NCBI RefSeq assembly: GCF_019059575.1
Contig: NW_024881570.1
Location: 310,001 to 374,000, forward strand
Direction: 5' to 3'
Length of the DNA stretch: 64,000 nt
From: Amphibalanus amphitrite
Taxonomy: Eukaryota > Arthropoda > Thecostraca > Balanomorpha > Balanidae
The number at the start of each line of letters is the position of its first letter. Within the stretch, counting starts at the first letter, position 1. This document shows, one piece after another, positions 13,287-62,246 of this stretch. The translations under genes were made by a program, and so were the position numbers. Under the pieces are notes generated by a model. That model was not told where the DNA came from. It saw only the letters and a program-made list of their open reading frames with translations, and searched no databases.

Positions 13287-15605
13287 TTAACCCGCGCACC
13301 GACGGGGGGGGGGGGGGCGGATATCCGTCCCCCGCGCCGCCAAATTTGGTATGAATAGGGTAGTGTGGGGTAATTTGAACATATTTTTACGTCTTCTCCG
13401 TTGTACCAAATTCCAGTTCAACCCTGGATGAAGAAAAACTGCTTCAGTAGTGCAAGTGTCACTTGCTTTCACCATGCAAGCCTCATTTTTGGACGAGCCG
13501 AGCATACCTTGAATAGCATAGCCTCACTTCTCCACCAAGTCACGGTGTGTTCAAATTGCCCCACCGTGGGGTAATTTGAACATACTGCCTTTACCTGTCA
13601 TAAAAACGATAGTCTCGCCAGCACCGATGTTGTTTGACCCATAAACAAATAGGCAGAACAATTCTAAACATACCTTCAATTGAAAAATCAACACAACAGC
13701 AAAAATAACAGTTGCAGAGTATCAATATCTGCACGCTGCACACCGGTCAGTTGACAGAATTCGCCCCTCTTCAATTAACAGAACGTCTATCATTTTTGTT
13801 CGATAAAACTCTCCCAACCGTACTACATCTGTTAAAGTGGTGCCAATCGAAACCTGGACATTTGGAGTTCTGATTTTGTCCAATGTTCAATTCGGAATTG
13901 GTTGGACAAAGGTAGCAGACTGGACAACATTGGACGATGGCTTGCTACACTTCAGCGCTTTTTATAAAGTAATCGTGCATAGCATTGATTGGCGAATGGA
14001 AAGCTTGTTAAGCTCTCAATATAATGAACACTTTTCGGCTGGTAAAATTACATGATAAGCAATATAAATGGCGGTTTTGAGTGTTGATAGCTGCATAATT
14101 TTCGGACATATTTGGACAAATAGTTGACTTTAACATTTTTGGACGGAAAATCAACAAAAATGCCGGACATTAGACGGATATTAGACGTAAATTTTCTAAA
14201 ACTGGCATCACTTATCTGCTACTGCCTTGGGTCGAAAATATTGGCAAAAAAAAACTGGGAGCGTTGTTTTTTTTCGGAGCTATCCCTGTCTTCATTGAAA
14301 TTCTCACACTATGTTCAAATTACCCCACGCTAAAAGTTATTTTGCCATTTTAAAAAACATGGTTCAAAAGCAAATTTCTTGGATTGAAGGCACTGATTAG
14401 GTCATTATACAACAAAAGCCGTTGCGTATTAGGCGCTAGCAATGCAAGATTTTGCGCTGCAATGAAGTTGCAATGACGTGTTGATAGGCGTTTTTTCTTA
14501 CGAAATTGATTTTTACACTGTGCGTCAACATCTTCATTCCCTGAAAGTTTAAACCCCGTTCATGTGATAGCCCTTTTAGTTACGATAATTTCTCTCATTG
14601 GTCTTATTGTCATGCCACTTATGGATTTTCCGTAATTTTCTGTTATTCACACTATGTTCAAATTGCCCCACATGTTCAAATTACCCCACCCTACCCTATT
14701 CCCTCATCAATTTTACACATGGTGTGCAAGTTTGAACCTCCTACCTTTCAAGGTCAGGTCACCAGGTCACTTTGAATGACCCAACCTCAAGTCACTTTTT
14801 TGCAACTTTGTCACCGTGCCAGAGCTACAGTAGATGTCGGAGGCATTTGAAAGTAGCAGGATGTTATTAGGTCATTAATAGCTACAATTTGTATATCTTG
14901 GAATTTTGATGTGGGTGACCTAAGGTCAGGTCAATTTCGCGACCTCCCCATTATAAGTCAATGGGGGGAAAAATCAACTCCCTGTTTTTACCACTAAAAC
15001 GGGTCGGAATGGCCCCATATACCATACATGACTTCATATACGATCAACCTTCACTACCTTGAGGTCAGTTTTGCTCTTGGGCAGCTGTATTTGGTCATGT
15101 GACGTCATCAAAGGTCACCAAAGTTTTTTTGCCAATAACTCCGTACAGGAACAAGATACAGCCGCGCGGATGGTCTCATTGTGTTCAGCTTGTCAAGACG
15201 CATCGAATGATATACATGATGACCTCGAGGTCACGTGACCTGAGGTCAACCTTTGACCTTGACCTTTCGAGGTCAACATATATATCATTCGATGCGGATT
15301 GACGAGAGGATTACGATGATGCCCTTAGCTTGTTCCTATCTTGACAAATTCGAAAGTTATTCGAGAAAAACTCTCTCCATATCTAGCGCCGCCATTTTGA
15401 CTTTTTCGACCCCTGTGACGTCATCTTTGACCTGACCTGAAAATGACCTTAGTAAAGATTGTAGATCTTGACCGTGCGTATCCGATGCCGTTTACCGCTT
15501 GTCGCTATCTTGCTTCGTTCTCGAGATCTCAGAGGGGGGGCGGTCATCCGCCCCCCCCCCCGTCGGTGCGAAGTTGGCGCAGACCCCCGTCGGTGCGCGG
15601 GTTAA
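13287..15605. mobile_element. T-family element (T4), TTAA flanked, with a nested TA-flanked element
   Basis: The left end is TTAACCCGCGCACCGACG, G-run, CGGATATCCG, C-run. The right end is G-run, CGGTCATCCG, C-run, GTCGGTGCGCGGG and TTAA at 15602-15605. Without the nested insert it is about 980 bp and closely matches the copy at 29270-30277. The interior has dense AGGTCA/TGACCT sites (a cluster at 15221-15275 with everted, inverted and direct arrangements) and TGACGTCA at 15100-15107. No protein-coding frame is seen. Confidence 0.8.
13358..14696. mobile_element. TA-flanked (Tc1/mariner-like) non-autonomous element M1
   Basis: The ends GGGTAGTGTGGGGTAATTTG and the inverted GGGTAGGGTGGGG form differ by one base over about 25 bp, with TA on both sides (13356-13357, 14697-14698). 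The homologous point in the T10 copy (about 29370) reads GGTATGACTATACCCTC with no insert. The motif GGGGTAATTTGAACAT from the TIR recurs internally near 13567 and 14313. No transposase. Confidence 0.75.
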
Positions 15606-16625
15606 ATATGACCTAAGTATTCACTTGAAAGTTGAAGCTCACAAGTTCCAAGTTCATGTATCTTACCATGTTTTTCAAAGATATATCAGACGAAACGTCT
15701 CCACCGTATATATCCGCTGTGTCGTCAGTCCCGCTGTCCCGTTTCTACCGTATCTACCGCTGATTTCTCGCGACTCTCCCTTCCGGCTGTTCCTCTGGCT
15801 GCTCCGACTCTGCCGCTGCTATCGGCAGACGCGGCCGCTGCCACCGGCCCGAGCCGTCTCATAACCCGGCCGTCCATCTCGGCTGTAGCTGCGACCGCTC
15901 GTAACAGGTGCATGAACAGCAAACAATCCGCCGGCGGCGGCCGACGGCCGGAGCCTTTGTCGCCGTCGACGGACGAGCCCAATAAACGGCCGGCGGCCGC
16001 ATCGTCGGCCGATTATGAACCGTCACGCTACCGCCGAATGCAGCGATATTGGCCGCAGGGCCTTTGTCATCATGTCAACTAGATTAGATTTGTGGACAAA
16101 TGTCCGCCGAATTATGGCCGCGCGCCGGCGCCCGGCGCTCAGCGGCGCCGGACAAAGCGGCCCTCAGCCCCCTGGCGGGGCGACCACCGGCAAAAAACAC
16201 GCCGCTAATCCGGCGACAAAATGCGGATCGCCACCGCCCGGAATGTGACTTCGTGAAAGGCGAGCCGAGCCGCGGCGGGCGCGCACAATTAGAAATGGTC
16301 GTGTTCATTACACGCGCGCGCACAGCGGAAAATGTGCGGTCACAACATTGACGTGTTGCCGTTCGGAGCCGGCTGTTTGTCGCCGGATCGGGCATTCCGC
16401 ACTCAGCCGGCCTGTGGGCCGCTCTTGTGGCCGCTAATTGGCTGGAGCACCGGCCCAGCAGCCGTGTGCGGACGACTGGAAACACTGATCGGATCCGTCG
16501 GCCCGGTGTCAGCCGCACAGCGAATCGCTGGCCGAGGGTCGCTTTGTCGAGTCTGTCAAATATTTGGGGGCAAATTCCTGGCATGCGCTCCAGGTGAAAC
16601 GGCCAAACTCACAGCCACTTGAGTG
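15606..16625. promoter_or_regulatory. GC-rich unique island, candidate cis-regulatory DNA
   Basis: 15700-16620 is free of the flanking repeat families and carries many short GC palindromes (for example GGCGCCGG near 16140). It also has CTTTGTCATCATG near 16058 (Sox/TCF-like core) and CTAATTGG near 16433. The overlapping frames on both strands have no family signature. A regulatory role is only suggested. Confidence 0.25.
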
Positions 16626-17291
16626 CATTATTCGCCGTTCGAGCTGGTGTGGTGTCCAGAAAGGATCAGACTTGACGCCGAGAGGATGAGACGGCTCAAA
16701 GAACCGGCCTGCCGACGGGTGGTCAGCACACGCCCACTCAAAATAAACGCAGAGCATGCGTCGTAGGAATGTGGAGGAGGTCACGTGGGCATTGTTCAAG
16801 GAAGAATGTGCGTTTTTTTTGGTATTTTGCTGGTAAGCTGTAAAAATTAAAGGCCAACTAAGTTTAGGCTGTGCATATCGCTATATATTTCCGAAACTCA
16901 CTCTTATGACACAGAGAACGGCAAGTGGCAACAAAAACAGAACATTCTGGATAGAATGAGCCCAACGCCTTATGTGCTGAAGCAACTATTGCGATACTTT
17001 GCGATTGTAGGCTATTCCACGATTGATAGGCATTTGCAAGGGCTAAAATGATAGACGATGACGAGTCTTAATTCATTTGGATAGATCTTCGTTATGCTTG
17101 TGAGGCAAAAGTATATTACAAATTTCCTCATTACTGCAGAACCGTACGTCCAAAGATCAAAACAATTTTCATATATCACTTTGCTGAAAGTATCATGATT
17201 TAGACAAGCAAGCATTAGCTATGTGGACGTCCAATATCACGATATTCACCACTTTTATTGCCAGTGTCAGTCAATTGTTAGCAGTCATCTC
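16626..17291. other. Unique sequence, nothing recognised
   Basis: A+T-rich DNA without recognisable gene, RNA or repeat. Confidence 0.4.
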
Positions 17292-17766: not shown

Positions 17767-17774
17767 GTCATCTC

Positions 17775-18571: not shown

Positions 18572-20963
18572 TTAACCCGGCCGGGCCCGGGGGGTAATCC
18601 CAACCACCGCAGCCCGGGGGGGCGTTTTTCGCCCCCTTGTCTAACTCCGTAAATAAGGGAGCTACGGAAACAAAAGCGATACCAAACGAAAGGTCCTTAC
18701 GATACCATTCTAAAGCATCTAAAATTTTTGACCTCAGGTCAATTTTCAAGGTCAGAAGTCAAGGTCAAGGGCAAAAACCGGCACATATGTAGTGATCTCA
18801 AAGTAAGCCTTCTAGAGGACGGCAGGCCGCATCAAACTGGCAAAATTGGGTGTCAAACGAAAGAAGAGAATCGGAGGATTCCGAAAATGTGCTCAAAATC
18901 AAAGGTCAAGGTCAAGGTCACGCTCAAAATTGACCTCAAACATGGCACTTTTTTCGCATATCTTGCGTGCTAACTTCCAAGATGTTTTGAAATGTTTTGA
19001 GGCTTATCAGTTCCCTATTTGTGGTTCATCTTACGTTACAAGCCTGGTACCGCCGACTTCAGGCTCACATTGCCTTTGACGGTGCCATATCCGACTCATT
19101 CAGGATCCGCCGGGGCACCAGGCAAGGTGCTATTCTCTCGCCTATCCTAGCCAACGCCTACCTACACCCGCTCGTAGCCGCCTTGGACGTAAGCGATCTC
19201 GGTGCTGACCTATATGGTCACCACGTGCCAGCTGTCTGCTATGCCGATGATCTGCTACTCCTGTCCACCAATGCCAGAAACCTCAGCACTCTACTAGATG
19301 TGGTTGATGACTTTGCGAAGACCTGGAGGCTGGAGTTCGTCCACCCGGAGCCCGTCCGCACCAAAAGCCACTGCATGGTCTTCGGCGCCGAGCTTCTATC
19401 CGAAGTGCCAAGATGGAGCCTGTCGGGCCAGCAGCTCTCCACCCGCCAGCAGTCCGAGCACCTCGGTGTCGTACTGGATGGGAGTTTATCTGCGGCGCCA
19501 CACGTCCAGCACCGCGCGTCTCGAGCTCGTGCCAGCCTGTACGGTCTCGCGCCTGCTGGTATGCTGACGTCCGGCCTCTGCCCAGCCGACAAGTGCTTCT
19601 TGTGGAAGACTATCATTCAACCGGCGCTCACATATGGCTGCGTGGCCGCCCCGCTCATTGCAAGGGACATGACGATCCTCTGTTCCGCTCAAGCGACTTC
19701 CATCAAGGTGGTTCTTGGCCTGCCTCGCTCCGCCCACCATTCGGCGCTTCTCGCTGCTGCCGACATCCAACCAGCACATGAACTGCTGCGGGCAGCGTGT
19801 TTCCGCGCTTTGAAAGATGCGATGCGCTCAGAGCACCGGCTGCAGCAGGCGCTGCTGTCAGGAATCACTAAGCTGGCTACGTGCCCGACTGAGCTAGTGG
19901 GCTCATTACTGATACAGCTTCATGAGATGTGTGACTGCAACCTTTCTGCACTCCTCGGGGTGGCAGCAGGGCGGCCGTGCAGCGACCGTATCTACCCCCA
20001 ACGGGCTCCCGATGGCCTAGCTGACTCGCTTGCCTTCCTGATGAGTCGCCGGGACCAAGTATCTCGCCGCCTGCTCCGGCTATTGACATGCCCGGAGCGG
20101 GAGTGAGTGTCGCCTGCGACATCAATGTGTGGCCCCTGCTCACCCACTGTCATGCTTTGTGTGATGTTTTGTGTGTGCCTTTTTTTTCTTACTTTCTTGC
20201 CAACTTTGGTGCCTAATAAACTATGATGATGATGATGACAAGGCTGCTTAAAGGTCAAGGTCACAGAAGAGTATCCCTGCTAGAGGCTATTTCACTAATT
20301 CAAGTTAGTAATAATAAATAGGACAATTTTGCCATCCGGAAGCTCTAAATGAAGGCTTAGAGGAAATCAGAGATTCGTGATCAGCGGGTACAAATCCATC
20401 ATAAACGACCTTCCATGTGTCAAGGTCAACCAGAGGTCATTCGAGGTCACATGAGGTCAACTTAAAACTTGACCTTCTTCGAGCAAAATGTATATCATTC
20501 GACGTGGCTTGACAAGGCGAATGCGATGGTACCACTGCCGTAGCTCTAGGACCAGTTTTGTCGAAGTTATTTGCGAAAAACTAAAACCACATTTCGGGGT
20601 AGTTGACCTGACCTCTGACCTCAGATCACCAAAACTATTTTTGTATTTTTCTCTAGGTCAAACGCTACACAACCGTGCTCGTAATTTGTCTTTAGTATCT
20701 CTAAAACTCTATTTTTAGCAGCTCTTTGAAGTTTGCGTCTGTGACGCCGAAGTTTGCCGTGCAGGGGTCTAGAAAAATGGACCTTGTGACGTCATCAAGG
20801 GGGCTAGGTCCATTTTTTTTTACTTCAGAAGATGTCAAATTGATGGGAGAAAAGGTTCTGAAAGTTTCGCTTTCCTATCCCTAAGCGTTCGGGAGCTATC
20901 GCAAATATTCGCCAGGGGCCGGGGGGGGGGGCGAAAAACGCCCCCCGGGCCCGCGAGGGTTAA
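18572..20963. mobile_element. T-family element (T5) containing a non-LTR retrotransposon fragment
   Basis: The left end is TTAACCCGGCCGGGCCCGG, a second block, G-run, GTTTTTC tip, C-run (to about 18635). The right end is G-run, GAAAAAC tip, C-run, GGGCCCGCGAGGG, TTAA (20960-20963). The two ends are inverted copies. AGGTCA arrays lie near 18740-18770, 18902-18925 and 20420-20475, and TGACGTCA near 20787. The TTAA at 20960 is shared with the neighbouring element T6. Confidence 0.8.
19035..20245 (+). mobile_element. 5'-truncated non-LTR retrotransposon: RT C-terminal half and 3' tail
   Basis: An open frame runs to the TGA at 20104-20106. It carries GTRQGAILSPILANAYLHP (RT motif 4), CYADDLLLLS (catalytic YADD) and EHLGVVLDG (motif 7), then the thumb/connection region. 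Motifs 1-3 and any endonuclease are missing, as expected of 5' truncation during target-primed insertion. The 3' end has AATAAA and a short ATGATGATG tail near 20220-20238, as in several CR1/L2/RTE-like lineages. ACAAGCCTG at about 19039 and ACAAGGCTG at about 20237 may be an imperfect target duplication. The frame seems open from the insertion boundary, so the insertion is probably fairly young. Confidence 0.75.
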
Positions 20964-22212
20964 CCCGGCACCACCTGGGCTATTTCCGTACCCACGACAG
21001 CCTGGGGGGGGGGGTCGGATCCGACTTCCCCCCCCTGTTATCTCGAGAACCAATAGTCGTATCGAGCCCCGCGAGGCGGCGTTCGAAAGGTCTCTACGAG
21101 ACCTTCCCAAAGCACTCTTAAGATTTTAAGATTGAGGTCAACTTTCGGGTCAAGGTCAGGTCAAAGGTCAAATTCAGGGGTTTTGCATGAATCGGCTTAC
21201 GGACAGCGGAATCGATAGCTGCTGCTCGAAACTCACCAAAAATGACCTCAAAGGCCTAGTGAAGGTACCATGTGCGTATAGGGGTCATACTAAGTACAGG
21301 TCAAGGTCAGGTCAGGTCACGAAAGTCACGGTTTTCACTTTCTGCTACATGGGCGTGCGACACATGTTTTATGGCTTATTTTTCACGCCGAATCCGATGG
21401 TAATAGGTATATGTGACCCCAAGTCACTGTGCTGGTGATAAGTGTGCATTGAAAGCATAAAAAATCGTTTATACTATACATAAGTAAACGAGGGCTAAGA
21501 AAAAAAGTCAATTTTTTAACTTTTTATTTTTGACATAAAAATGCACTTTTCTAGACGAGCTTTGTCCCAGGAATCTAGTGGTGCCATTTGTTTTCACATG
21601 CGATGTTCAGAAGTGCCTATAATTCACGAAAATGCTTATGACGTCACCATGCCCTATGCATGTTGGAGCTATTTTTTACAATTTGGGGGTCAAAAATCAA
21701 GATAGAAAGTTGAAATTTGGGGCATCTAATGTTCTAATAGAGCTTTACAACATATATTCCGATTTTTTGGAAATTCCCAAAATTTTGGATTTTATAAGCT
21801 GTTTTCCAAAAATATAGTTTTTTGAATTTTTTGGGGTGAAAAACGCATTTTATGGAAAATCCGAGATAGCCATTTTAAAGAACTCGTTGAGCTGCGTCTT
21901 CTCATGTCCTTAATTTGCAATTTGCTTCAAACCCTGATTTTTGGCGATTTTTTAAACATTTACCACTTTTTGACAAAAACGCTAAATTTTTTGACTAAAT
22001 TTTAGTGTAGTTATATCACTAAAATCGATATATCTAAAAAAAAATTGGATTTTTTTTTTTCTTAAAAATTGCACAAAAGACGTCAAATTGATGGGGGAGA
22101 AGGTATGCCAAGTTTCAAGTAGATAGCGAAAGTGGTTCATGAGTTATTCAAGAAAAACGGAGGGGGGGGGGGGGTCGGATCCGACCCCCCCTCCCAGGCG
22201 GTCGCGGGTTAA
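20960..22212. mobile_element. T-family element (T6) sharing a TTAA with T5
   Basis: It starts TTAACCCGGCACCACCTGGG, followed by G-run, TCGGATCCGA tip, C-run. It ends CAAGAAAAACGG, G-run, TCGGATCCGA, C-run, CAGGCGGTCGCGGG, TTAA at 22209-22212. The interior includes AGGTCAAGGTCAGGTCAGG near 21297 and long T/A-rich stretches. No ORF of note. Confidence 0.8.
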
Positions 22213-22712: not shown

Positions 22713-22747
<35 letters not shown>

Positions 22748-23661: not shown

Positions 23662-24493
23662 TTAACCTTCCAGGCGGTGGGGGGGGGCAATTTTTTGCCC
23701 CCCCCCCCTTTAGTTTTTTCGATATATCTCGAGAACCGCTGCGCCGATCGTCACCAAACTTTCAGTACCCTCCCGGGAGCAGCTAGCGCACACGGTGACC
23801 AAAAATTTTTCCAAAGGCTATGATAGGTTGGCCGCTAATGACGTCAGAGTGACGTCATTTTTGCCATTTTCGACCCAAAAAAAGGTTTCGCGGGAAGAGC
23901 TGTCAGGCCTACAGCTTTAGAGATACAGAAAAATGTTTCAGACATAAAAGGTGTAGAATTAAAAGGGCTACAAAACTGCAATTTCAGTTTTTCAATTTTT
24001 TGGATTTTGACCCCCAAAAATCAAAAAATAGATTTTTTGAATATAATAGCCAAAAAATCCAAAAAGTTTTTTGAATTTCGAAAAAACCGGAATATATGTG
24101 ATAGCCCCTTCCACCTTCTATCTACATACCAAATTTGAGATCGATACCTCTTTTTTTGGCCAAGTTATAGCGAAAAAACTGTTCAAAATTGATGACGTCA
24201 AATTTTCAAACTCAATTGTTAGCAATTCTAGACCTCGTAGCGCAAAACAAAGACCACCATTAGACTCCCCGTGACGAGCTGCATCGAATCGATACCCATT
24301 TTATGCAAAAATAACAACTTTGAAATTTGACCTTTTTTTACCTGACCTTGACCTGACCTCCACCAGAAAGTGACCTAAACCGTACCTGATGGTCTTATAA
24401 CCAACACCATTGAGTTGGAAATGAAAAACTGGCCATAAAACATGCATCGCATAACCTTAGTAAAGTTGGGTTCATGTGGTGACCCTTGGTGAC

Positions 24494-25529
24494 CAGGGAT
24501 GCGGAGCCGTGGAAATTTCAAACGGCTCCGGCTCCCGCTCCGGCTCCGGAGAAAAAAATCGGCTCCGGCTCCGGCTCCGGCTCCGGGTGAAATGTTATGG
24601 CGGCTCCGGCTCCGGCTCCGGCTCCGAGTAAAATGGTCCGGCTCCGGCGGCTCCGGCTCCGACTCAGTACATCCCCTATGCAATCAATTAAATACGGGTG
24701 GAAGAAAAATTGAATTGGTTATACGCGTTACCTACTCTTGCCATGACCGGCTCATCGCGTCCCCGCGCAAACGCACCTCGGAGAGAACTGGCAGAACAAA
24801 GGACTAGGAAGCGATGCCATTGGAAACGCAGTCGCCGCGAATCGGAGTTCACTGACCCATCGTAAGCTGACACCCATCTCGGCTGCATTGGGGGGTGGTG
24901 GGTGGGTGGGAAGAGACGGTGCTGGGAGTCGCAGTCCACTGCACTGGCTTCAAAACAATGGCCGTCACCTGATGACTGGTCCTCATGTTCTGGGGATGCA
25001 GTAGACGTGAGGGGGGGGGGGGGGAGGAGCAGACAGGAAGTTGATTGCGTACTGTGGGGTGCTGGGGATATTCGGCTTTTTCATTCACTTGATGGCCCAT
25101 GACGTACTATTGGTCTCAAGATAAGGGCCAAGGCGACCTGTAGTTTTGATGCGGTGAATACCCTTACCCTCGCGCACAACTCGGGCCGAGTGCACCCCTC
25201 CTCCCAGCCAGCGCCACCCCCACTCGCATTGTGGCGAGGGTGAGGGTATTCACCGCATCAAAACTACAGGTCGCCTGGGCACTTATATTGAGACCAATAG
25301 TACCTACGATATGTTTTACTGCCTTGTACTGTCAAACCTAGGTCAATTATTTTTTTCCTCTTCAAAAAATAAAAAGGAGCCGGAGTCGCCCCCTTTTTTG
25401 GCGGCTCCGGCTCCGGCTCCGGCTCCGGGCTATATTGTTTCACGGCTCCGGCTCCGGCTCCGGCTCCGGGCAAAATATGCCGGCTCCGGCGACTCCGGCT
25501 CCGACTCCGGCTCCGGCTCCGCATCCCTG
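24494..25529. mobile_element. hAT-like element with GGCTCC-repeat ends and 8-bp duplication
   Basis: It begins CAGGGATGCGGAGCCG and ends with the exact inverse. TTGGTGAC is duplicated at 24486-24493 and 25530-25537. Both subterminal regions (24520-24665, 25375-25520) are tandem GGCTCC repeats in inverse orientation. The centre holds a 194-bp fold-back element. No transposase frame. Confidence 0.9.
25107..25300. mobile_element. Fold-back MITE with TA flanks
   Basis: Arms of about 67 bp (25107-25173 and 25234-25300) are nearly perfect inverse copies starting CTATTGGTCTCAA. TA flanks both ends (25105-25106, 25301-25302). The loop is about 60 bp. This suits a Tc1/mariner-mobilised MITE. It is nested within the hAT-like element, which is nested within T7. 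Confidence 0.75.
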
Positions 25530-25904
25530 TTGGTGACCTTTGGTGACCTGACCTGTGACCTGACCTGGTATGACCAGTGACCTCTAATAGCAACATATGT
25601 ACTATACAACTGACGCCTTATCGCTGATTTTCGACAAAATGCGCTTTACTCGGTGTTATAGCGCTTTCCCTAGAAGCCCCGTGAACGGTGAAACATTTTA
25701 TCTTTGACCTGACCTGTGACGTCATCGGTGACCCCGAGGTCAATGAAATTTGGTTTCCCTCGACAAATTTGACAGGGCTATCGAACGCCGTTTGAATTTT
25801 CGGGATCCGTCCAGTAGTTTCGGAGATACGGGGGGGGGGGCAAAAAAGTGCCCCCCCCCCACCGCGTGGAAGGTGGCTGGTAGGCCCACCGCCTGCCGGG
25901 TTAA

Positions 25905-26645: not shown

Positions 26646-27832
26646 TTAACCCGCGCCCCGCTGGGCTATTCAGCCATACGCGCCCTGCTGGGGGGGGGGG
26701 GCAGATTCTGCCCCCCCTGTCTAACTTCCGAACGGATGGTCGTAGAAAGACGGGGAAAACGGCAATCGAAAGCTCTCAACAAGGCGGATCTTAAGAGCCC
26801 AAATTTTTTTGCTTAAGTAGGTCAGAGGTCAGGTCAAGGTCAGGTCAAGGGTACAAGATGCAAGTTTCTACAGTATCGGCCTTGCACCGTAGTTGCCGAA
26901 GAATGGAGTGAGACTGATTGCCCAAAACGTGTTCTTAGACTACCAAGACAATATTCGTTGCATACAATGTCATTCAAAGGTCAAGGTCAAGGTCAGGTCA
27001 GGTCATGTCAGGTCACCAAAAACAAAATATAGAAAAGGGCATGTGCGACACATGTTTTATGGGTCATTTTGCTCATAGAATTCAATAGGCGCACTCAATA
27101 AGTGATATGGACCACCTCTAGATGAATTTCAGGTCGAGGTCAGGTCAAGGTCAGGTCAAGTGAGGTCAAATTTTGAAGTTGGTTGTTAAGGCCTCAAAAG
27201 GTGTCTATCTGATGCAGTTTTTCACGGCGAATCGAATGGTGCTATTTTTGTTTCCGTACGAGGTCCAGAACTTCCAAAAAAATCATTTTTCGAAATTTTT
27301 GTCGGTCGTGACGTCATAAAATTTTGAATAACTCCCACATTTTTCAACCGATTCTTCTAAAAATTGGTATGTAGGTGCACATAGACCACTTCTTTGACAT
27401 ATATTCCGGTTTTTTCGATACACTCAAAATTTTGGATTTTATAAATATTTTCTCAAAAAAGTCAGTTTTTTGAAAAAATTTGGGCCAAAATCCAAAATTT
27501 TCAAAAAACCGAGATAGCCATTTGATAGACAAAAAAGAATCACGTATAACCTTTTTTGTTACGTCTTGATTCCTTTAAAAATGAAGATGTTAGCAGCGTT
27601 TGAAATTTTGCCATTTTTGAGGCGAAAATGGCGAACATGACGTCACTAAAACGTCAATTTCTCAAAAATTTTCCGACGGATTTCGCTCAAATTTTCAGGG
27701 AACGTGTCAAATTGATGTATGATAAGGTACTGAAAGTTTGACGTCGCTGGCGTAACGCGTTTAGAAGTTATTGGCGAAAAACGGGAGGGGGGGCAGATTC
27801 TGCCCCCCCCCCCCCAGCGGGGCGCGGGTTAA
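26646..27832. mobile_element. T-family element (T8)
   Basis: The left end is TTAACCCGCGCCCCGCTGGG, a second CGCCCTGCTGGG block, G-run, CAGATTCTG tip, C-run. The right end is GCGAAAAACGGG, G-run, CAGATTCTG, C-run, CAGCGGGGCGCGGG, TTAA at 27829-27832. It has very dense half-site arrays: 26819-26850 and 26976-27016 combine overlapping AGGTCA direct repeats and TCAAGGTCA extended sites. No coding frame. Confidence 0.85.
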
Positions 27833-28332: not shown

Positions 28333-28793
28333 TTATCCCAATTTTTAGTACCTTCCCGGGCATCAATTTGACACCTTCACACAAAATTTCAAGTCTTAGG
28401 TCACCTTAGGTCAGGAGTTATTGAGGTCAAACTGAGGTCATGTTCGAGCAAAAATGAGCAAAAAACATGCAATCTTGAAACGCTCACCAAATCTACAGTT
28501 ATCAAGCAATTTCAAAGTTCTTTATATGGTCTAGTAGACAAAAAGCGGCGAAGTCCTGAAGTCCATGCTACTGAAAGCCCGATTTTGGGTGTTTGACCTG
28601 ACCTTGACCCGACCTGTGACCTCAAAATTCAACTTTAAAGTACTCATCTGAAACGTCTCGTCGCGTTCTTTCGTTTGCCGCCTCGTGCGTTTCGCTGTGC
28701 CTATTGGTTCTCGAGTTATCGGCTGGGGGCGTTTAACGCCCCCCCCCCCAGCAAACGGTGGGTGGGGAAATACCCCAGCAACTGCCGGGATAA
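28333..28793. mobile_element. Truncated T-family element (T9)
   Basis: The right end has GTTATCGGC, G-run, GTTTAAC palindromic tip, C-run, and GCAACTGCCGGG followed by ATAA (28790-28793). The left side begins abruptly at TTATCCCAATTTTTAG without a hairpin, suggesting loss of that end. AGGTCA-type sites lie at 28398-28445 and 28595-28625. Confidence 0.55.
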
Positions 28794-28817
28794 ATGACAT
28801 GTGCGCTGAACTAAGTA

Positions 28818-30937
28818 GGGGAAGCCGGGGGAAGCCCGGCATAGTAAGCTCTTTTTAATTTTTATTACATACCATACGTGCTGTATAAAATGTTGATATC
28901 CTGCTAGCTAGCTAAGTTCATTGGCCGTGTTTTCCCAAAAATTCGGTTTCGTGGAATAAGTATAAGGTTGAGAAAATCGAGTTTTAAAAAAGTGTTGATT
29001 TTTCTGGGGTAAGCCCGGCATAGGGGTAACGCCGGCCACCTCCCCAGCGCTTTACAACGAGTTGGTGAAACCATTATGTGTTTTCCAAATATTAACGGAA
29101 AGTGAAATATTAAGGGACTTATTAGCTCTGGACATCTTGAGTTAATGTCATTACTGGTATTTTAGCTAGCGTCTACTACATATACAGTACAGGTCGATGA
29201 AAATCGTGATGCAAAATTGACAAAAAATGTGTATTTCAAAATTCCTTAAAATTTATTTTTCTTTTTACCTTAACCCGCGCACCGACGGGGGGGGGCGGAT
29301 ATCCGCCCCCCCCTGAGGTTTTTCGCGGATAGCGGGAAAACCGCGGCGCGTAGCGCCGCGAAATTTGGTATGACTATACCCTCATCAATTTTACACATGG
29401 TGTGCAAGTTTGAACCTCCTAACTTTTAAGGTCAGGTCACCAGGTCACTTTGAATGACCCAACCTCAAGTCACTTTTTTGCAACTTTGTCACCGTGCCAG
29501 AGCTACAGTAGATGTCGGAGGCCTTTGAAAGTCGCAGGATGTTATTAGGTCATTAGTAGCTACAATTTGTATATCTCGGAATTTTGATGTCGGTGACCTA
29601 AGGTCAGGTCAATTTCGCGACCTCCCCATTATAAGTCAATGGGGGAAAAATCAACTCCCTGTTTTTACCACTAAAACGGGTCGGAATGGCCCCATATACC
29701 ATACATGACTTCACATACGATCAACCTTCACTACCTTGAGGTCTGTTTTGCTGTTGGGCAGCTGTAAGGTCATGTGACGTCATCAAAGGTCACCAAAGGT
29801 TTTTTGCCAATAACTCCTTACAGGAACAAGATACAGCCGCGCGGATGGTCTCATTGTGTTCAGCTCGTCAAGACGCATCGAATGATATACATGATGACCT
29901 CGAGGTCACGTGACCTGAGGTCAACCTTTGACCTTGACCTTTCGAGGTCAACATATATATCATTCGATGCGGATTGACGAGAGGATCACGATGATGCCCT
30001 TAGTTTGTTCCTATCTTGACTACTTCGAAAGTTATTCGAGAAAAACCCTCTCCATATCTAGCGCCGCCATTTTGACTTTTTCGACCCCTGTGACGTCATC
30101 TTTGACCTGACCTGAAAATGACCTTGGTAAAAATTGTAGACCTTGTCCGTGCGTATCCGATGCCGTTTACCGCTTGTCGCTATCTTGCTTCGTTCTCGAG
30201 ATCTCAGGGGGGGGCGGTCATCCGCCCCCCCCCGTCGGTACTAAGTTGGCGCAGACCCCCGTCGGTGCGCGGGTTAATGCATCATATTGCATATCATTCG
30301 ACTCGGCTGATGAAGAAGAACACAACGACACCATTTTTGAAGCTCTAGCTTCATTGTCTGTCGCGTTATCTGCAAAAACGTAGTTTGACCCTAGTTGACC
30401 TTAAGTGACATGACTGGCTTTGTCTATGATAACATGTTTATTTTCGAAATTTATCTTTGATCTAGGTGTAAACCAAACCTGCTCAGTACCTATTATCTCA
30501 TGGAAAACAGTGGTTTAGTGGCCTTGCTATCGGTTGGGGGTAAGCTTGGCCACTCGCCCGGGGTTACCCCAATGTGCTAATTTTTATTTTAGAACAGCGA
30601 TATTCGAAAAAAATGCCATACTTAAGCCAGCCTGCCTCGTCACCCCTCACTACAAACACTTAAACGGTCCTTACATAACATTCGTATAAGTATTAGTACT
30701 GTATGGTGTAACATTAACAGTGCAACATATCTCACTTTTTAGCTAAAAATCCTTAAAATATCATTTTTGCGCTATAACTTTAATAATATGCAATTTTTGT
30801 CAGTCTTAACTTTTTTGCTGGCGTTACCTTAGCTGCCACGCTGAAAGGACAAACAGTTGAGCATTTTATTGTGAATAATTTAGCCGGAAACGGGGTGGCC
30901 GGGCTTCCCCCGCGCCCGGGCTTCCCCCGGCTTCCCC
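28818..30937. mobile_element. TA-flanked (mariner-like) element M2, containing T10
   Basis: The ends GGGGAAGCCGGGGGAAGCCC and their inverse are flanked by TA (28816-28817, 30938-30939). Without T10 it is about 1.1 kb. TIR-like motifs such as GGGGTAAGCCCGGC recur inside (near 29005 and 30537). No transposase. Confidence 0.75.
29270..30277. mobile_element. Complete T-family element (T10), near twin of T4
   Basis: 1008 bp with TTAA at 29270-29273 and 30274-30277, CGGATATCCG left hairpin and CGGTCATCCG right hairpin. It is collinear and nearly identical to T4 apart from M1. It includes a CGCGGCGCGTAGCGCCGCG hairpin near 29340 that T4 has partly lost, half-site clusters at 29898-29952, and TGACGTCA at 29775-29782. 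This is the best reference copy of the subfamily in the window. Confidence 0.88.
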
Positions 30938-30939
30938 TA

Positions 30940-31255: not shown

Positions 31256-31260
31256 TTTCC

Positions 31261-31453
<193 letters not shown>

Positions 31454-38858: not shown

Positions 38859-40091
38859 GGGGAGAGTGGGGTAATTTGGCCGCTTTTTTTAGAAAACGAT
38901 ATAACTTAAAATTGACGACACATTTCTGCATTTTCTCAACGCTGGCAGGTGTCGCATTCATTTTACTTTACTGGACAGTGAACTTGAAATGATAGAGTAA
39001 TTACTTATATTGAAATTGTGACGTATTACAAAGGTCTGCAAGGCGGCCAAATTGCCCCAGTAGCAGGGTTATTTGGCCGGGGGTGTGGGGCAATTTGGCC
39101 GGTGTTAGTTTGCGGTTGGGATTTTCTGTTATATTGCGATTCAGCTTCAGATTCAGCAATGACGTGTGTCCTATGACGCATTTGCCGCATTTTGGAGGTT
39201 GGCTCAGGGGTCACAGGGGTCAAAATAGCCAAATTAGCGGCTCTAGATGCGATCACAGTTTTTTACGAATAACTTTTGAAGTAATCAAGCTATGCCAAAA
39301 CTTCGAGTACCATCGTAATTCTCTCGTCAGTCCGCATCGAAAGATATATGTGTTGACCTTGAGAAGTCAAGGTCAAAGGTTGACCTCAGGTCACGTTGCA
39401 TCAGGTCGCTTGACCTCAAGGTCACGTGATTTCAAGGTCATCATGCATATCATTCGATGCGCCTTGGCGAGCTGAACCGAATGAGACCATTTGTGCGGCT
39501 GTACCATTTTTATGTAAGGATTTATTAGCAAAAAACGTTTGGTAACCTTTGATGATGTCACATGCTCTTACAGTTGACCAATCGGAAGTAAGAATCAAAG
39601 AAGTCAAAGTTGGTCATGAATCATGTCATTTATGGTACAATTGACCATGAAAACTCGGCCGTCCCAGCATAGTGACCATGAGCGCACCGGCCAAGTTGCC
39701 CCGCTAGTCCCGGCCAAATTACCCCATATTGCCATTCTGAAAACTTTTGTCTATAAAGTCATCGCGGCTTTACGGAATTAGATAAAATTGCTCTTGGAAC
39801 CGCTGAACACCCCCAAGAACGGCGCTATAATGTCTGAATTCGTTTTTAGCCCAAATACTACATGTTATACAACTTTATAAACAGAAGTAAAAGTTACCAT
39901 TTTCTAATGAAATTAACGTTTTATTAATTTTGAATAAAACTACGAGGGGCAAAGTTTTGACATTTGTCCTCCAGTTACTTCTACCCATGACAAATGAATT
40001 GAGACTAGAGTTATTTCACTCACTTTTATTAGACATCGTACAGGTGGGGGCGGCCAATTTACACCACCGGCCAAATTACCCCACTCTCCCC
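38859..40091. mobile_element. TA-flanked (mariner-like) element M3 with a T-like interior piece
   Basis: The ends GGGGAGAGTGGGGTAATTTG and their inverse are flanked by TA (38857-38858, 40092-40093). The TIR core recurs internally as GGGGCAATTTGGCC (about 39089) and GGCCAAATTACCCC (about 39712). 39220-39600 contains AGGTCA/TGACCT clusters and, in reverse, resembles T4/T10 around 15060-15300; no hairpin ends are seen there. No transposase. Confidence 0.75.
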
Positions 40092-46655: not shown

Positions 46656-47800
46656 TGCGAGCGAGCGCGGAAAAGAGTTTTCAATGTAACGGGAAAATAT
46701 CAGTATGAGCGGTACAGCTCGGACCGGCCCGCCCTATAACGCTTTTGAGAAGCTTTTATCTCGGCCACCGCTGGGCCGATTGAACCGCGGTCTTTTTTGT
46801 TTGGTAGCCCCATCCCTCCTACCTCGTAATTGACTACTCTTGATGCACCTGGGTGATCGCCGTGTCATGTGGCTCTTGCGAAGCCAAGGGTGTCAACTCA
46901 GAACCCAAAGTCGTTCTGCTGAATGTACGTTTTTGAGAGGATTATGTCTGTGTAAGCACAGGATCGATTTACTAGGAAATATGTTTGTAGGGTATTTTCA
47001 TCCATTTTGCCGAGGACACGACTTTTCTCGATGCATGTGGGTGACCAACCATGGCTGCACGTGCCACGTGCATAATAAAGAGATGTCATGTTTGTGTCAA
47101 TTACAATAACTATGCAATTATCGTGCTCATAGCGCTGAAACTTGGCATGTGGGTAGGCACTCATCGGGCAATGCATTTTCATGTGTCACGTTAGGGGTAC
47201 TACTGCACGTGCGCACGTGCAGTGGTCACTGGTCGCTCCTAGATCTCGGGAACGGCTGGACCAATTGCGCTCAAAATTGGCACACCGGTAGGGACCGCTT
47301 AGTAGCGTGCCGGGCAAAAGTCGTTTGGGACCCCGTTTGCACGTGCGCACGTGCAGGAGGCCGCTTCCATATATAGAAAACGGCGAGGCCGATTGCGCCC
47401 AAATTTGGTACACCTTTAGGAACCGCTTAAGAGGGTGCCGAGCAAATGTCATTTGTGACTCCGGTTGCACGTGCGCGCGTGCAGCAGGCCGCTTCCGGGT
47501 CTCGAGGACGGCTAGGCCGATTGCGCTTAAAGTTGGTACGCCTTTAGGAATCGCTCAGGAGGTTGTCGAGCAAAAGTCAATTGTGACCCTGTTCGCACTT
47601 CGCACTTGCGCACGCGCAAGAGGCCGCTTCCGGATCTCGAGAACGGCTGGGCCGATTGCGCTTAAATTTGGTACACCTTTAGGAATCGCTTAGGAGGGTG
47701 CCGAGCAAAAGTCAATTGTGACGCAATTGGCACGTGCGCACGCGCAAAATTGCACATGCGCTCAAATTTGGTGCACCATTAGGGACCGACTAGTAGGATG
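46656..47800 (+). repeat. Second copy of repeat B with CACGTGCGCACGTG array
   Basis: 46656-47050 parallels 8500-8857 plus 10572-10620. 47195-47770 has roughly 125-bp units, each with a CACGTGCGCACGTG-type palindrome (near 47205, 47340, 47467 as a variant, 47730 degenerate) and the module ATCTCGAGAACGGCTGGG followed by CCGATTGCG. The open frame through the units is a by-product. Confidence 0.8.
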
Positions 47801-47969: not shown

Positions 47970-48961
47970 AGTTTCGAATATCAGGTCAAAGTAAAAATTA
48001 TCGACATTTTTGCTAGTTCACAAGTTAGGCTCTGACCGCCGGACCGCCAGTCCGATCAGGCTCATTTTTGGTTTACGCACTCCTTGACGGATGCCTTAGA
48101 TACCCTGAGGGTACCGAACTTTTACTTCGAATTTTTAAGGTCAAGGCCAGGTCATCCTAGGTCACGAAAATTGTATATCATGTATCGGTCACGTGACGCA
48201 TGTTTTATGGTCCATTTTACTCGTAGATTTCGAAAATAGTGTCGTCTGTGTCATTTGAGGTCATTGGCAGCTGAATTTACCGGAGGTCAGGTCACTTTCA
48301 GGTCAGAAAAGGTCAAATTTTTAAGAATGAAATTTTTCAACAAAAAGGTGCCTATCAGATGCAGTTTGAGCTCAAGAACACGATGGTGCCATTTATATTG
48401 CTGTAAGACGTCAAAAACGTACTGAAAAATGGATTTGAAAAAAACATAACATTGTAAAATTTTGACAATAATGCGAATAATTTGGCTATTTTTGAAGACA
48501 TTGGGCTAAAACTTGCAAATGTAGTTCATCAGTGTGTGTTCTACCACATATATTCCGGTTTTTGCGAAAAGTCAAAAACTTTTTGAAAAATCTGTAATTG
48601 TAAATACATATTTTTCAAAATTTTCAAAATTTCGAAAATTCGAGATAGCAGTTCGATAGCTACGTGTATTTGTAGTTCACTCATGCAAAGAAAATGGATC
48701 TAGCTCTAAAACTGAGCTCTTGAGAGCGTTTGCCGTAATTCAGTATTTTGCATGAAAATCGGCCGACATGACGTCACTCTGACGTCATTTCCGGCCAAAC
48801 TGTAGTAGCTAGAAAGTTGAAATTTTACCACAAGGTGTCAAATTGATGCCTCTGAAGGTACCGCAAGTTTCGTGTTGATCCGTCAAACGGTTTAGAAAAT
48901 ATTGCTGAAAAACGGGAGGGGGGCTCTGTAGAGCCCCCCCCCCCAGTCATGCGCGGGTTAA
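47970..48961. mobile_element. Left-truncated T-family element (T12)
   Basis: From about 47970 it is collinear with 56400-57391 (T15). The right end has GCTGAAAAACGGG, G-run, CTCTGTAGAG tip, C-run, CAGTCATGCGCGGG and TTAA at 48958-48961. The left hairpin is absent. Two TGACGTCA sites lie at 48769-48776 and 48780-48787. Confidence 0.75.
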
Positions 48962-49519
48962 GCATTTAGACCAGGTCGGGTCAGGTCAGGTCAGGTCAAC
49001 CGGTAGGGGTCGTGACGGGTATTAGTAGTACCTGTCATCCGCCTCTGACAGCTTCGTAACATATTACGAAGGCACCAAAACTACTTCGTTAATGTTCAGA
49101 TGGTTGCTAAATTCGAATTCAGCTCCAAAAACTAGCCTAGGAACATGTAAAACTCGAACAAGTGAACCGAGGTCACCAACGGTCAATGACCTGACCTTCA
49201 GGTGATCTTGACACCCACCCTAATGCATGGGAGCAACATCAAATCACATGTTTGAACGTTTGAAACCACGAAAAGATTGCAAACGCGCGGCTAATGCGAG
49301 CCGACATACGCCGAATCGCGATTCCGGCCAAACATGGTCTCGGAAAAAAAGTCACAGGTCAAAGGTCATTTGGGTCAGGGTCATGAAATTTTCACGGTAG
49401 GTGTAAAATTGATCAATGCGAGGGCACTGAAAGTTTCGTCGCGATCGGCCGCTTTTTACGCGAGTTATTCCCGATAAACCTTATGGGGGTTGCATCAACC
49501 CTGTGCCGGCGAGGGTTAA
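48962..49519. mobile_element. T-family fragment (T13), inverse partner of T2
   Basis: It matches the reverse complement of 9568 to about 10160. The right end is G-run, TTGCATCAA tip, short C-run, GGCGAGGG, TTAA at 49516-49519. Its left part is cut by T12, which sits where the T2 copy reads GCATAAAG. It contains CGGTCAATGACCT at 49180-49192, one mismatch from the ecdysone-type palindrome of T2. Confidence 0.65.
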
Positions 49520-56202: not shown

Positions 56203-57391
56203 TTAACCTGCGCATGACGGGGGTATTTTCCATAACTCAAGTGACTGAGGGGGGGGGGGGCTCTCCAGAGCCCCCTCCTATCTCCGAAAATTCTGGGTCA
56301 ATCGTCAAAATTCAAACGGCGTCTGATAGCCCTGGAAAAAAATGTCGTGCGAAACCTATTTTCATTGACCTCGAGGTCACCGATGACGTCACAGGTCAGG
56401 CAGGTCAATGTAAAAATTATCCGCTTTTTTATTGTTTACAATTTAGGCTCTGGCCGACGGCTGACGAGTTCGATCAGGCTCATTTTTGGTTTACGCACTC
56501 CTTGATATATGCCTTAGATACCCTGAGGGCACCAAACTTTTGCTTCGAATTTTTCAGGTCAAGGTCAGGTCATCCTAGGTCACGAAAATTGTATTTCATG
56601 TATCGGTCATGTAGTGCATGTTTTATGGTCCATTTAAACGTAGATTTCGAAAATAATGTCTTTTGTGTCATTTGAGGTCATTTTCAGCTGAATTTACCGG
56701 AGGTCAGGTCAATTTCAGGTCAGTAAAAGTCATATTTTGAAAATGTCATTTTTTCAACAAATAAGGTGCCTATCACATGCAGTTTGAGCTCAGGAACACG
56801 ATGGTGCCATTTATATTGCTATGCGATGTCAAAAACGTACTGAAAAATGTTTTTTTTTTAAATATATTATTGTAAAATTTTGACAATAATGCAAATAACT
56901 TGACTATTTTGAAGACGTTGGGCTAAAACTTGCTTAAGTAGTTCATCAGTGCGTGTTTTATCATATATATATTCCGGTTTTTGCGAAAAATAAAAACAAA
57001 TTGAAAAAAAAATCAATTTTTTGTAATTATAAAAAAAATCTAAAAAAAATTCAGAATTTCGAAAATTCGAGATAGCAGTTTGATAGATACGTGTATTTTT
57101 AGTCCATTGATGCAAAGAAATTGGATCTAGGTTTAAAACTAAGCTCTTGAGACCGTTTGCCGTAATTCAATATTTTTCATCGAAATCGGCCGACATGAAG
57201 TCACTCTGACGTCATTTCCGGTCAAACTATGGTAGCTAGAAAGTTAAAATTGTTACATAAGGTGTAAAATCAATGCCGCGGAGGGTACTGCAAGTTTCGT
57301 GTTGATCTGTGAAATGATTTAGAAGATAATGCCGAAAAACCGGAGGGGAGGCTCTGTAGAGCCCCCCCCCCCCCAGTCATGCGCGGGTTAA
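56203..57391. mobile_element. Complete T-family element (T15)
   Basis: TTAACCTGCGCATGACGGGG starts the element at 56203, followed by G-run, CTCTCCAGAG tip, C-run. The right end is GCCGAAAAACCGG, G-run, CTCTGTAGAG tip, C-run, CAGTCATGCGCGGG and TTAA at 57388-57391. It is collinear with T12. TGACGTCA is at 56384-56391, and AGGTCAAGGTCAGGTCA lies near 56556. Confidence 0.88.
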
Positions 57392-57985: not shown

Positions 57986-59203
57986 CACTGGCGGATCTGG
58001 GGGGAGGGGGGGGGGGGGGCACGGGAGCCTGAGGTGCCCCTGACAGGCCCGTGGTGCCCTTGCTAGGCCTGTGGTGCCCCTGGACCCTGACAGGCCTGTG
58101 GTACAGTCTGTCTTAAAAGTACCGCGCAAAGTGGCGGTGGATCCATCAAGCCTGACCGAGAAAGGGCCTGTTTTAATTTAAAAGTCACCGACCAATTGAC
58201 CTAGGGAATGGATAAGGATGTCAGTTGCTTCAGTGACCCAAATTTAGCAGGCCCTTGCTCAGTCAGGCTCGATGGATCCACTGTCACTTTGCGCGGTACT
58301 TTTAAGACAGACTGTACAGTCCACAGCAGAAGTAATGTGGGGTTTCAGTCATGGGTATGTTCTGCTTCTGAAGCTTAGGAACGATTAGCCAGACTACAAT
58401 GAAACTTTGAATGTAGCTTATATGTATCGTCACCCTTGCAGCTGCAACTTTAGCTATTGACATCTTCTTTCCAATCACTTCGCATTAAACAATCGCCAGT
58501 CAAAGCCAACCGTTGAGTTTGGTAAAACCCTACATTACTTTAGCGGTGGGCTGTACCTCTGGCGGGCCTAGGGTGCCCCTGCTAGGCTGCTGATGCCCCT
58601 GGGACCTGACAGGACTGTGGTGCCCCTGAAAGCCTAAAGTGCCCCCAACAGGCCCGTGATGCCCCCGACAGGCCCAAGGTGCCCCTGCGTGATGCCGTGA
58701 TGCCTGCGAGGCCGGTGGTGCCCCCTGCGAGGCCGGTGGGGCCCCTGACAGGCCCATGGTGCCCCTGCTAGACCGGTGGTGCCCCTGGCAGGCCTGTGGT
58801 GCCCCTGCTAGGCCGCTGGTGCCCCTGGGCCCTGACAGGCCCAAGGTGCCCCTGCAAGGCCGGTGGTGCCCCTGTAAGGCCTGTGGTACCCCTGCTAGGC
58901 CTCTGGTGTCCCTGACAGGCCCATGGTGCCCCTGCGAGGCCGGCGGCGCCCCTGGCAGGTCTGTGGTGTCCCTGACAGACCTGGGGTGCCCCTGACAAGC
59001 CTGTGGGGCCCCTCACAGGCCCGTGGTGCCCTTGCTAGGCCTGTGGTGCCCTTGCTAGGCCTGTGGTGCCCCTGGCGGGCTGGTGGTGCCCCTACTAGGC
59101 CGGTGGTGCCCCTACTAGGCCGGTGGTGCCCCTGACAGGCCTGTGGTGCCCCCGGGCACCAAGGGGGTCATGACCCATGTGGCCCCCCTTGGATCTGCCA
59201 CTG
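57986..59203. mobile_element. hAT-ended element with 20-bp minisatellite and nested MITE
   Basis: It starts CACTGGCGGATCTGGG and ends TTGGATCTGCCACTG. The interior is the 20-bp minisatellite seen at 33.4-34.7 kb, in inverse orientation (58025-58103, 58555-59155). The flanking octamers do not match, so one end may have been replaced by recombination. Confidence 0.65.
58104..58314. mobile_element. Tc1/mariner-type MITE, 211 bp
   Basis: The ends CAGTCTGTCTTAAAAGTACC and their exact inverse are flanked by TA (58102-58103, 58315-58316). The near-palindromic arms continue through GGATCCA and CAGGCCCTT-like parts. It is inserted in a minisatellite unit. Confidence 0.88.
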
Positions 59204-61162: not shown

Positions 61163-61335
61163 TGAATTTTATGCAATGATTGTGAAAGACGTCTGCCTCT
61201 GTCAATTACAGATAGTGTCGGCGGCTTCCAGCCGATCGAAGTCTGCGAGAGTTCTTGCAAGCTTTCCGATCGATCGAGTGGTTGCAGTCACATAAGCATC
61301 TGCCGCAGACCAGTCGGTTACAATAAAAATTACGA

Positions 61336-62246
61336 ATAACCCTCGCCCGCACATGGGGGGGGTGGTTGCCACCCCCCCAGGCAGTCTTTCTGCTCTGCAC
61401 TCAACATTTTTAGAGCTAGAAGGCTGATTTTTCGTATAGCTGCTCGTCTATCCTTTCTTGATGTCCACTGAAAATTTCAAGTTTCTGTGATTTTTGGTTT
61501 CGGAGATATGACCTTGTTTTTCAGGTCATGTCATGACCCAAATGGCCAATTCTCAACATCTTGCGTTTGCCATCGGCCTTGTGAGCTTTTGACACCCTGA
61601 TTTCGGCCTTTTTTGCCATTCTTACCTCCCACCTATCATGGAACATATTGTTCGACGATGTACAGGGGTCAAGGTCAGGGTCAAGGTCAACCTAGGTCAT
61701 CTAAGATAATTGCGTTTTAGGCAAGCTGAATTTACTTTTTGTGAAGTTTTTTGACTGCATTTTTGGTAAAAGCTTCTCAGATCATGATTTCATGTGATAT
61801 GGACCCAAAAACAATCGGTGCACACATCAGTATACACACAGACACACACAGACATACAAACACATATAATTGACCTTGACCTAACTTGACCTGAAATGAC
61901 CTCAGCAGCAAAATTCTGGTCGGATAGTGTGACAAAGAGGTTCTAGCTGGCTTAGCACCAGAAAACAGCATCGTCATCGGTATTTGATAAGCAGCGCACT
62001 TGATATCCACCGGTGACCCAAAACAGCAACATTTTTTAGTTTGACCTGACCTGGAAGGTCAATGACTGACCTGAGAAGGTAAAACTGGGTATCATTGGAT
62101 TCGTCTCTTTCCAAAGAATCTTTTTGGTCTTTACTGCTAAGCTCTATCTCCAACAGGAACGAAATGGCGCGGGGGGGGGGTGGCAACCACCCCCCCCCCC
62201 ATGTGCGTTCTAGGATGGGAAAATGGCATGTGCGGGCGAGGGATAA
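61336..62246. mobile_element. T-family element (T16) with ATAA flanks
   Basis: ATAA CCCTCGCCCGCACATGGG, G-run, TGGTTGCCA tip, C-run at the left; G-run, TGGCAACCA tip, C-run, CATGTGCGTT..., GCATGTGCGGGCGAGGG, ATAA at the right. The ends are inverse copies. It has AGGTCA-type sites near 61667-61710 and 62040-62080. A CACACAGACA tract lies at 61835-61865. Confidence 0.8.

Follow-up and report, generated by a model that had tools for sequence, protein, structure and literature searches.

A stretch of 64,000 nucleotides from Amphibalanus amphitrite (contig NW_024881570.1 of assembly GCF_019059575.1, positions 310,001 to 374,000 of the forward strand, hereafter the window) contains many copies of a repeat, T, whose ends carry a G-run/palindrome/C-run hairpin and whose interior is dense in AGGTCA and TGACGTCA. 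What kind of element is T, what moves it, and why does it carry these motifs? The T copies are very probably non-autonomous, recently active members of the piggyBac superfamily, and not a new superfamily. Directly observed are the duplication of the target, the borders of the copies, their empty sites, an element with T ends that codes for a transposase (the C33 element), and the motif lattice. The family is piggyBac; what is new and surprising in T is the regular and conserved lattice of its motifs.

Copies, boundaries and mobility

An earlier, sequence-only reading of the window had proposed a family built on one plan and had named eleven starts. The family is real: nine of these starts are bounded copies with an equal 4-bp duplication on both sides (TTAA in seven, ATAT in one and ATAA in one, counts that are biased that way since the copy finder demands equal duplications of type WTAW), and the hairpin lies within 130 bp of both ends in all nine. 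The two remaining starts, 28333 and 47970, retain the right end only. The duplicated letters vary and the CCY/RGG tips do not, which indicates that the duplication is that of the target. Six further bounded copies are found in the surroundings of the window (60 kb). Within the window, the copies and relics are the following.

13287..15605, plus strand: T4, TTAA-flanked; a TA-flanked 1.34-kb repeat is nested at about 13355-14692
18572..20963, plus strand: T5, TTAA-flanked; nested fragment of a long interspersed nuclear element; loop CGTTTTTCG/CGAAAAACG
20960..22212, plus strand: T6, TTAA-flanked; its left TTAA is common to T5; loop TCGGATCCGA
23662..25904, plus strand: T7, TTAA-flanked; a GGCTCC repeat is nested at about 24497-25530
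26646..27832, plus strand: T8, intact, TTAA-flanked, 1179 bp; at least 41 near-full-length genome rows, T8 included, at least 96% identical
26819..26847, unstranded: T8 motif slot 1, 5 AGGTCA
26978..27015, unstranded: T8 motif slot 2, 6 AGGTCA
27137..27168, unstranded: T8 motif slot 3, 5 AGGTCA
28333..28793, plus strand: T9, part copy; hairpin and right end CGGG followed by ATAA, without T tip on the left
29270..30277, plus strand: T10, intact, TTAA-flanked, 1000 bp; empty site at 40 paralogous places
47970..48961, plus strand: T13, without left tip; hairpin and right end CGCGGG followed by TTAA
54585..55779, plus strand: T14, ATAT-flanked, with six motif slots in 1187 bp; resembles the C33 right end (68.8% over 487 bp)
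56203..57391, plus strand: T15, TTAA-flanked, 1181 bp
61336..62246, plus strand: T16, ATAA-flanked, 903 bp; counted from its two ends, the first slots lie at 179 and 187 bp
1..254, plus strand: right end of a copy that leaves the window at its left edge; hairpin at 207-237, GCGGG followed by TTAA
9590..10430, unstranded: T relic without clear tips
49286..49519, plus strand: T relic, right end GCGAGGG followed by TTAA
about 39206..39581, unstranded: T-like interior relic, inverted relative to T4 and T10

The tips are 5'-CCY...RGG-3', in CCC and CCT forms, and are thus termini of the piggyBac type; CCY termini are the rule in the piggyBac superfamily. An article on piggyBac-linked miniature inverted-repeat transposable elements (MITEs) of corals gives CC[C/T]T (PMC2872659; here and below, statements on published systems hold for the parts of the cited articles available to us), which the T tips CCCG, CCCT, CCTT and CCTG fit in part only. 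In the genome behind the contig set (807.6 Mb in 2,644 contigs), the tip pattern TTAACCCGCGCN{4,30}G8 has 6,812 matches on the forward strand against 6 for the backwards control, which implies many thousands of T ends; the reverse strand gives 24,988 against 0, one end being counted several times. GCGAAAAAC, with 9 occurrences in 15 T copies, is not universal. T has the marks of a MITE (it is non-coding, with inverted ends and a high copy number), and its copies, at 0.9-1.2 kb, exceed the usual MITE size.

Mobility is seen in T8 and T10. The T8 rows (96-100% identical, 40 of 3,134 candidates scored) begin at query base 3-8 and end at 1191-1199 (the window copy at 1-1201), T proper being 7-1193. 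Eight of the 12 T8-family loci that were fetched, the window copy included, have equal duplications and unrelated flanks; the four others have unequal flanks, and two of these resemble one insertion on two contigs. T10 sits in repeated sequence, and its flanks, joined with one TTAA, match all 40 scored places (1,439 candidates) at 98-99% across the joint. This is the empty site, in paralogous copies, and it demonstrates precise insertion only. The T8-family rows and the T10 empty sites establish that the ends of T define insertion boundaries, which the sequence-only reading had required of its proposal, the comparison being between paralogous sites and not between individuals. T therefore duplicates its TTAA target as piggyBac does, with ATAA or ATAT in some copies. 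In the fetched DNA, 2 of 23 joined flanks matched across the joint and neither was used, one being T5's own end beside T6 and the other 50 bp at 84%.

Some of the sequence around and inside these copies deserves mention. T10 is seemingly placed within a repeat (window 28816-30941) whose ends are GGGGAAGCCGGGGGAAGCCCGGC. Nested inserts were read directly in T4, T5 and T7, and the one in T4 (window 13355-14692; L002-L008; TAGGGTAGTGTGGGGTAATTTGAACAT...), with at least 40 rows at 96-100% identity, is likely a recently active TA-targeting element. Some T or piggyBac ends have their TTAA in common with a neighbouring T (window 20960 for T5/T6, L043:4774, L046:1501 and the end of L059), as if the TTAA at such ends were a preferred target.

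A transposase-coding element with T ends

None of the 116 genome matches listed for the PF13843 profile lies in the window, and the T copies there are non-coding, in agreement with the sequence-only reading, which had seen no transposase in them. The C33 element, 4.7 kb long, carries the T tips and the hairpin, its right end is rich in AGGTCA, and it codes for a transposase of the piggyBac family. The hairpins and the half-sites had not been recognised from a described family; this element places T within a described superfamily. The proposal of TTAA targeting with piggyBac-like CCC ends is borne out.

Up to GGGCGCGGG followed by TTAA, the right end of C33 is 99.94% alike to that of C257, and the bases beyond differ; the hairpin is 40-67 bp inside this end, which holds 16 AGGTCA. 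A left end, TTAACCTTCGCCCTGGTGGGGG, was predicted from a non-coding copy and is located at C33:451733-451754 on the expected strand, the element measuring about 4,715 bp from end to end. Genome-wide, TTAACCTTCGCCCTGGTGGGGG left ends number 287 against 0 in the control, and C33 is among the matches listed, which stop before C257 and C431. The transposase frame, 666 codons without stops, is present in three copies (C33, C257 and C431). The C33 protein (644 residues) matches PF13843 at 5e-60 and the piggyBac structure 6x67 at 1e-52, and the D of its TIDES, MDRYFTS and GGVDVID align to the three catalytic D of piggyBac. A DDE_Tnp_1_7 transposase with a DDD triad is thus found between T ends in the C33 element. 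The piggyBac superfamily is further marked by a cysteine-rich zinc finger at the C-terminus; a Cys/His-rich stretch is visible in protein P0002, without a match in Pfam or PDB.

The link with non-coding copies is direct. One T copy, L044:4832-6021 (C73:398832-400021), lies 25 kb right of the window; against the final 681 bp of the C33 element it shows 99.1% identity, and it has both tips in common with that element. The remainder of this copy has at least 40 rows at 99-100% (40 of 859 candidates scored), seven of which, itself included, reach the top score over 542 bp. Given these near-identical C33-derived copies, and an element with T ends that codes for a transposase, T makes up the non-autonomous part of a piggyBac group that was active recently.

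Other piggyBac families were tried as the source of T and rejected: among the 30 loci fetched first, 18 have a matched end pair of the CCCATTAG, CCCTTTA or CCCAGATC type, and 12 have no matched end pair within 4 kb each (3' flanks were read at 19 further places). At L028 a T pair is also present, the other-type piggyBac element being nested inside a T copy. Transposases 38-42% alike to that of C33 include those of the hairpin carriers L057 and L059 and of the AGGTCA-array carriers L036 and L061; the listed CCCATTAG, CCCAGATC and CCTCTTGG family transposases are 26-30% alike to it, and six bounded elements of the CCCATTAG, CCCTTTA and CCCAGATC types contain 0-4 AGGTCA each. We lean towards the view that the hairpin and AGGTCA traits concentrate in one transposase clade.

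Several points weigh against so simple a partnership. The window subfamilies are 66-73% alike to C33 or its derivative where they can be aligned, and they may have partners other than C33. The C33 read excludes the part from 450651 to the left end, and searches of Pfam and PDB with the cysteine-rich C-terminus gave no match. As for the clade, L057 has a hairpin but 3 AGGTCA in 1.7 kb, the 18 AGGTCA of L059 include those of a neighbouring T, and the reads at L061 and L036 stop short of the ends; moreover, there is one hairpin match in L010, one of the six other piggyBac elements, and L065 has a hairpin at a TTAA end, beside a piggyBac transposase that is not listed as a C33 relative.

Two side observations concern piggyBac loci. 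The stretch L065:348-1223 is bounded by CCCTATTAGTGGCAGG on both sides (868 bp), with the hairpin at one tip, and is adjoined by a 605-codon piggyBac transposase (C387); it is possibly a second hairpin-ended lineage. A canonical piggyBac family with a 604-codon frame and CCCATTAGTGCCC ends was fetched in 11 copies (L022-L032); over 2.6-2.7 kb these show 99.4-100% identity, which indicates very recent activity.

The motif lattice

The enrichment that had been read from the sequence holds against shuffled controls. The 12 T spans counted, 15.3 kb with their nested inserts, contain 162 AGGTCA, where 200 dinucleotide shuffles give a mean of 7.2 and a maximum of 16; for TGACGTCA the count is 16, and the shuffles give a mean of 0.15 and a maximum of 2. 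AGGTCA is the top-ranked 6-mer of these spans, with a density of 10.6 per kb against 0.97 in the rest of the window. The 15 T copies contain 229 AGGTCA, 36 TCAAGGTCA and 19 TGACGTCA.

These motifs are arranged on a lattice. Counted from the ends with nested inserts kept in, 0 of the 229 AGGTCA lie within 100 bp, 1 in 100-150, 71 in 150-200, 4 in 200-300, 86 in 300-400, 0 in 400-450, 51 in 450-600 and 16 beyond; 172 point inward and 57 outward. With nested inserts removed, the clusters have a period of 167-169 bp, and not a single random placement out of 1000 attains the power observed (the test was run on 15 elements, and also on one each of eight kinds, with T5, T13 and C33 left out). The spacing between clusters is 140-200 bp in 34 of 40 cases, with a mean of 166 for those, and 38 of the 50 spacings below 450 bp fit the same range in further DNA, from which the pattern had not been derived (mean of those 168); much of this DNA is T-related, which makes it a check and not an independent sample. 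TGACGTCA occupies AGGTCA slots in 20 of 22 cases, 8 being expected.

Of the C33 DNA that was read, the last 766 bp contain 16 AGGTCA, the coding sequence (1,935 bp) a single one and the 465 bp that follow it none, against 2 in the 450 bp upstream. This distribution, and the conservation of the motif between subfamilies, speak against the idea that the half-sites are a cargo.

The evidence for conservation and for a 10-bp rhythm comes with points that count against our reading. AGGTCA is kept in 252 of 323 cases in 14 between-subfamily alignments, against 845 of 2,921 for control hexamers, but these counts are not independent, since the subfamilies share ancestry and the near-identical C33 and L044 sequences make two of the 14 pairs redundant. 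When the sites are masked before alignment, AGGTCA is kept in 36 of 42 cases, against 368 of 834 for 25 control words, but some of these words, such as CCTTGA (0.79) and GACGTC (0.74), come near the AGGTCA level, and only two of the four masked alignments contained sites, both being close pairs. An anchoring artefact was checked and set aside by this masking, which retained only closer pairs. Motif-masked T DNA has a rhythm of AT steps at 10.0 bp, with a power of 0.73 against a null maximum of 0.45 (100 shuffles) and 0.16 in 13 non-T control stretches, which, however, differ from T in AT content; the only nested repeat analysed by itself reached 0.46 at 10.25 bp, a value that its noisy null also covers. 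The motif arrays are not the source of this rhythm, since masking leaves it in place; in the unmasked test, periods 8, 9, 11 and 13 are also above most or all shuffles, and below period 10. Lastly, phase-locking is also seen in some words of the spacers, though at different phases, and the AGGTCA clusters are confined to one half in T6, T8, T15 and L43a.

What the lattice may do

We propose that transposases of the C33 kind would move T copies in trans, inserting them at TTAA and duplicating it, and we infer that the C33 transposase itself moves the window subfamilies. Each T end would be a long cis-acting unit, made of the CCY tip, the palindrome near the tip and then segments of about 167 bp, a nucleosome length, separated by clusters of TGAC(C/G)T sites (AGGTCA, TGACGTCA). 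One protein, the transposase or a host factor, may bind both forms of the motif, and the segments may wrap nucleosomes, with the protein sites in the linkers. We consider it more likely than not that the lattice has a role in transposition. Exact motifs at nucleosome-like steps are kept while much of the non-coding DNA between them changes, which argues for selection on the element's own spread. More tentatively, the T ends may be encoded nucleosome arrays, each end having several nucleosome-length segments with 10-bp rotational signals, in which TGAC(C/G)T in the linkers would load the transposase or host factor on packaged DNA, movement depending on the fit to chromatin.

To our knowledge, how cut-and-paste transposases find and pair nucleosome-wrapped ends is poorly understood. 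A recently active family with thousands of copies, lattice ends and an open transposase frame in one genome would make a direct test of such pairing possible. If this explanation is true, dense sets of apparent sites for hormone receptors and cAMP response elements (CRE) could be carried across a genome because they serve the transposon itself.

It may instead be, in line with the hormone/CRE proposal of the sequence-only reading, that host nuclear receptors and bZIP proteins bind the AGGTCA/TGACGTCA clusters, keeping T open in germ cells or turning it into regulatory modules. The abundance of the three motifs in the 15 T copies would fit, as would the strong conservation of the motif, the sites at nucleosome-like steps and the make-up of the neighbour pairs within 20 bp: 36 of 154 form direct repeats whose gap, 1-5 (4 in 20 of the cases), is one known from receptors. 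However, the commonest arrangement is an overlap by one base (41 of 154 pairs), which we do not know from receptor dimers; AGGTCA and TGACGTCA have slots in common, for which a single TGAC(C/G)T-binding protein is simpler, and the arrays go with one transposase clade. We regard this explanation as somewhat doubtful, and hormone-response modules are not needed to explain the motifs of T.

The lattice could also be left over from an ancestral array with units of about 167 bp and be without function now, but this is unlikely. The spacers of seven elements were compared (two others have no third slot). Within elements, one of 21 pairs is alike at z 4 (L44b, z 16.9) and another reaches z 3.0, and between elements spacers 1 and 3 are alike in 4 of 21 and 7 of 21 pairs, all of which a tandem duplication could leave; on the contrary, 20 of 21 within-element pairs stay below z 4 and, between elements, one pair of 21 is alike in spacer 2, the spacing and the hexamers persisting. 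Tandem duplication thus has little support from this comparison as the source of the lattice: the spacing holds where the sequence often does not.

The palindrome near the tip

The palindrome loop varies between subfamilies, yet it reappears inverted at the opposite end of the same copy, and its arms covary: 47 of 63 positions pair, against a mean of 23.2 and a maximum of 36 in 2000 partner shuffles (21 distinct loops, which include related ones and one from the L065 stretch). In known piggyBac transposases a dimer of the C-terminal domain binds a near-tip palindromic internal repeat as duplex (PMC7351741, PMC11707139). By analogy, the T palindrome is probably the dimer site of the C-terminal domain of the transposase. 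The pairing of the loop arms would also be expected if the G-run/palindrome/C-run acted as an extruded hairpin or cruciform; this is improbable in our view, since duplex binding by a C-terminal-domain dimer predicts equal symmetry.

Movement by another superfamily that duplicates TTAA is disfavoured to the point of being very improbable, whether Sola3, for which TTAA duplication is known, or Kolobok, which also duplicates TTAA (PMC9587614, PMC6004289) but has termini 5'-RR...YY-3' where T has 5'-CCY...RGG-3', because the tips follow the piggyBac rule and the transposase encoded between T ends, in the C33 element, is of the piggyBac kind.

Window positions 10755-10980 and 47242-47746 are taken up by tandem repeats of 126-128 bp that have GCACGTGCGCACGTGC spacers, and their word ATCTCGAGAACGGCTGGGCCGATTGCGCTCAAATTTGG reappears in a weaker version next to T hairpins. 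A 20-bp unit, CAGGCCTGCCAGGGGCACCA, makes up satellite-like arrays at 33369-34679 and 58033-59188, in largely opposite orientations.

Comparison with known systems

Among the titles and abstract openings listed for the literature on TTAA MITEs, barnacle piggyBac elements, piggyBac ends, AGGTCA transposons and transposon nucleosome arrays, no such family was found. The T2-MITE/Kolobok elements of Xenopus are also TTAA-targeting MITEs, and one listed Kolobok end has ATAA, but their tips are AGGRR and they belong to another superfamily (PMC6004289). MER85/PGBD3 of primates likewise comprises copies of a piggyBac transposon that are non-autonomous, and a 16-bp imperfect palindrome close to one of the ends is required for binding; the available text of PMC3459987 has no AGGTCA lattice. 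The coral CMITEs are piggyBac-linked TTAA MITEs with tandem arrays, and their interior is kept better than the tips, which has been taken as a hint of a role in transposition; in contrast with T they are about 100 bp long, and the available text of PMC2872659 mentions no hairpin and no lattice.

The piggyBac element of Trichoplusia ni (PDB 6x67, 6x68; PMC7351741) resembles T by its TTAA target, its DDD transposase and its near-tip palindromic internal repeat, which is bound there by the C-terminal domain. Its sites include TGACGCATG and a proposed cryptic site, TGACGTACG, which are close to the TGACGT/TGACCT of T. In cells, ends of 35 and 63 bp are the minimum there, and neither a 167-bp lattice nor a G-run/C-run palindrome is present in the available text of that article. 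The piggyBat element of Myotis (PMC11707139) differs from T in having three sites of about 44 bp each, which together span about 132 bp and the last of which restricts activity; like T, it has arrays of paired sites (a GCGGGA motif and an imperfect palindrome) that run inward from the tip.

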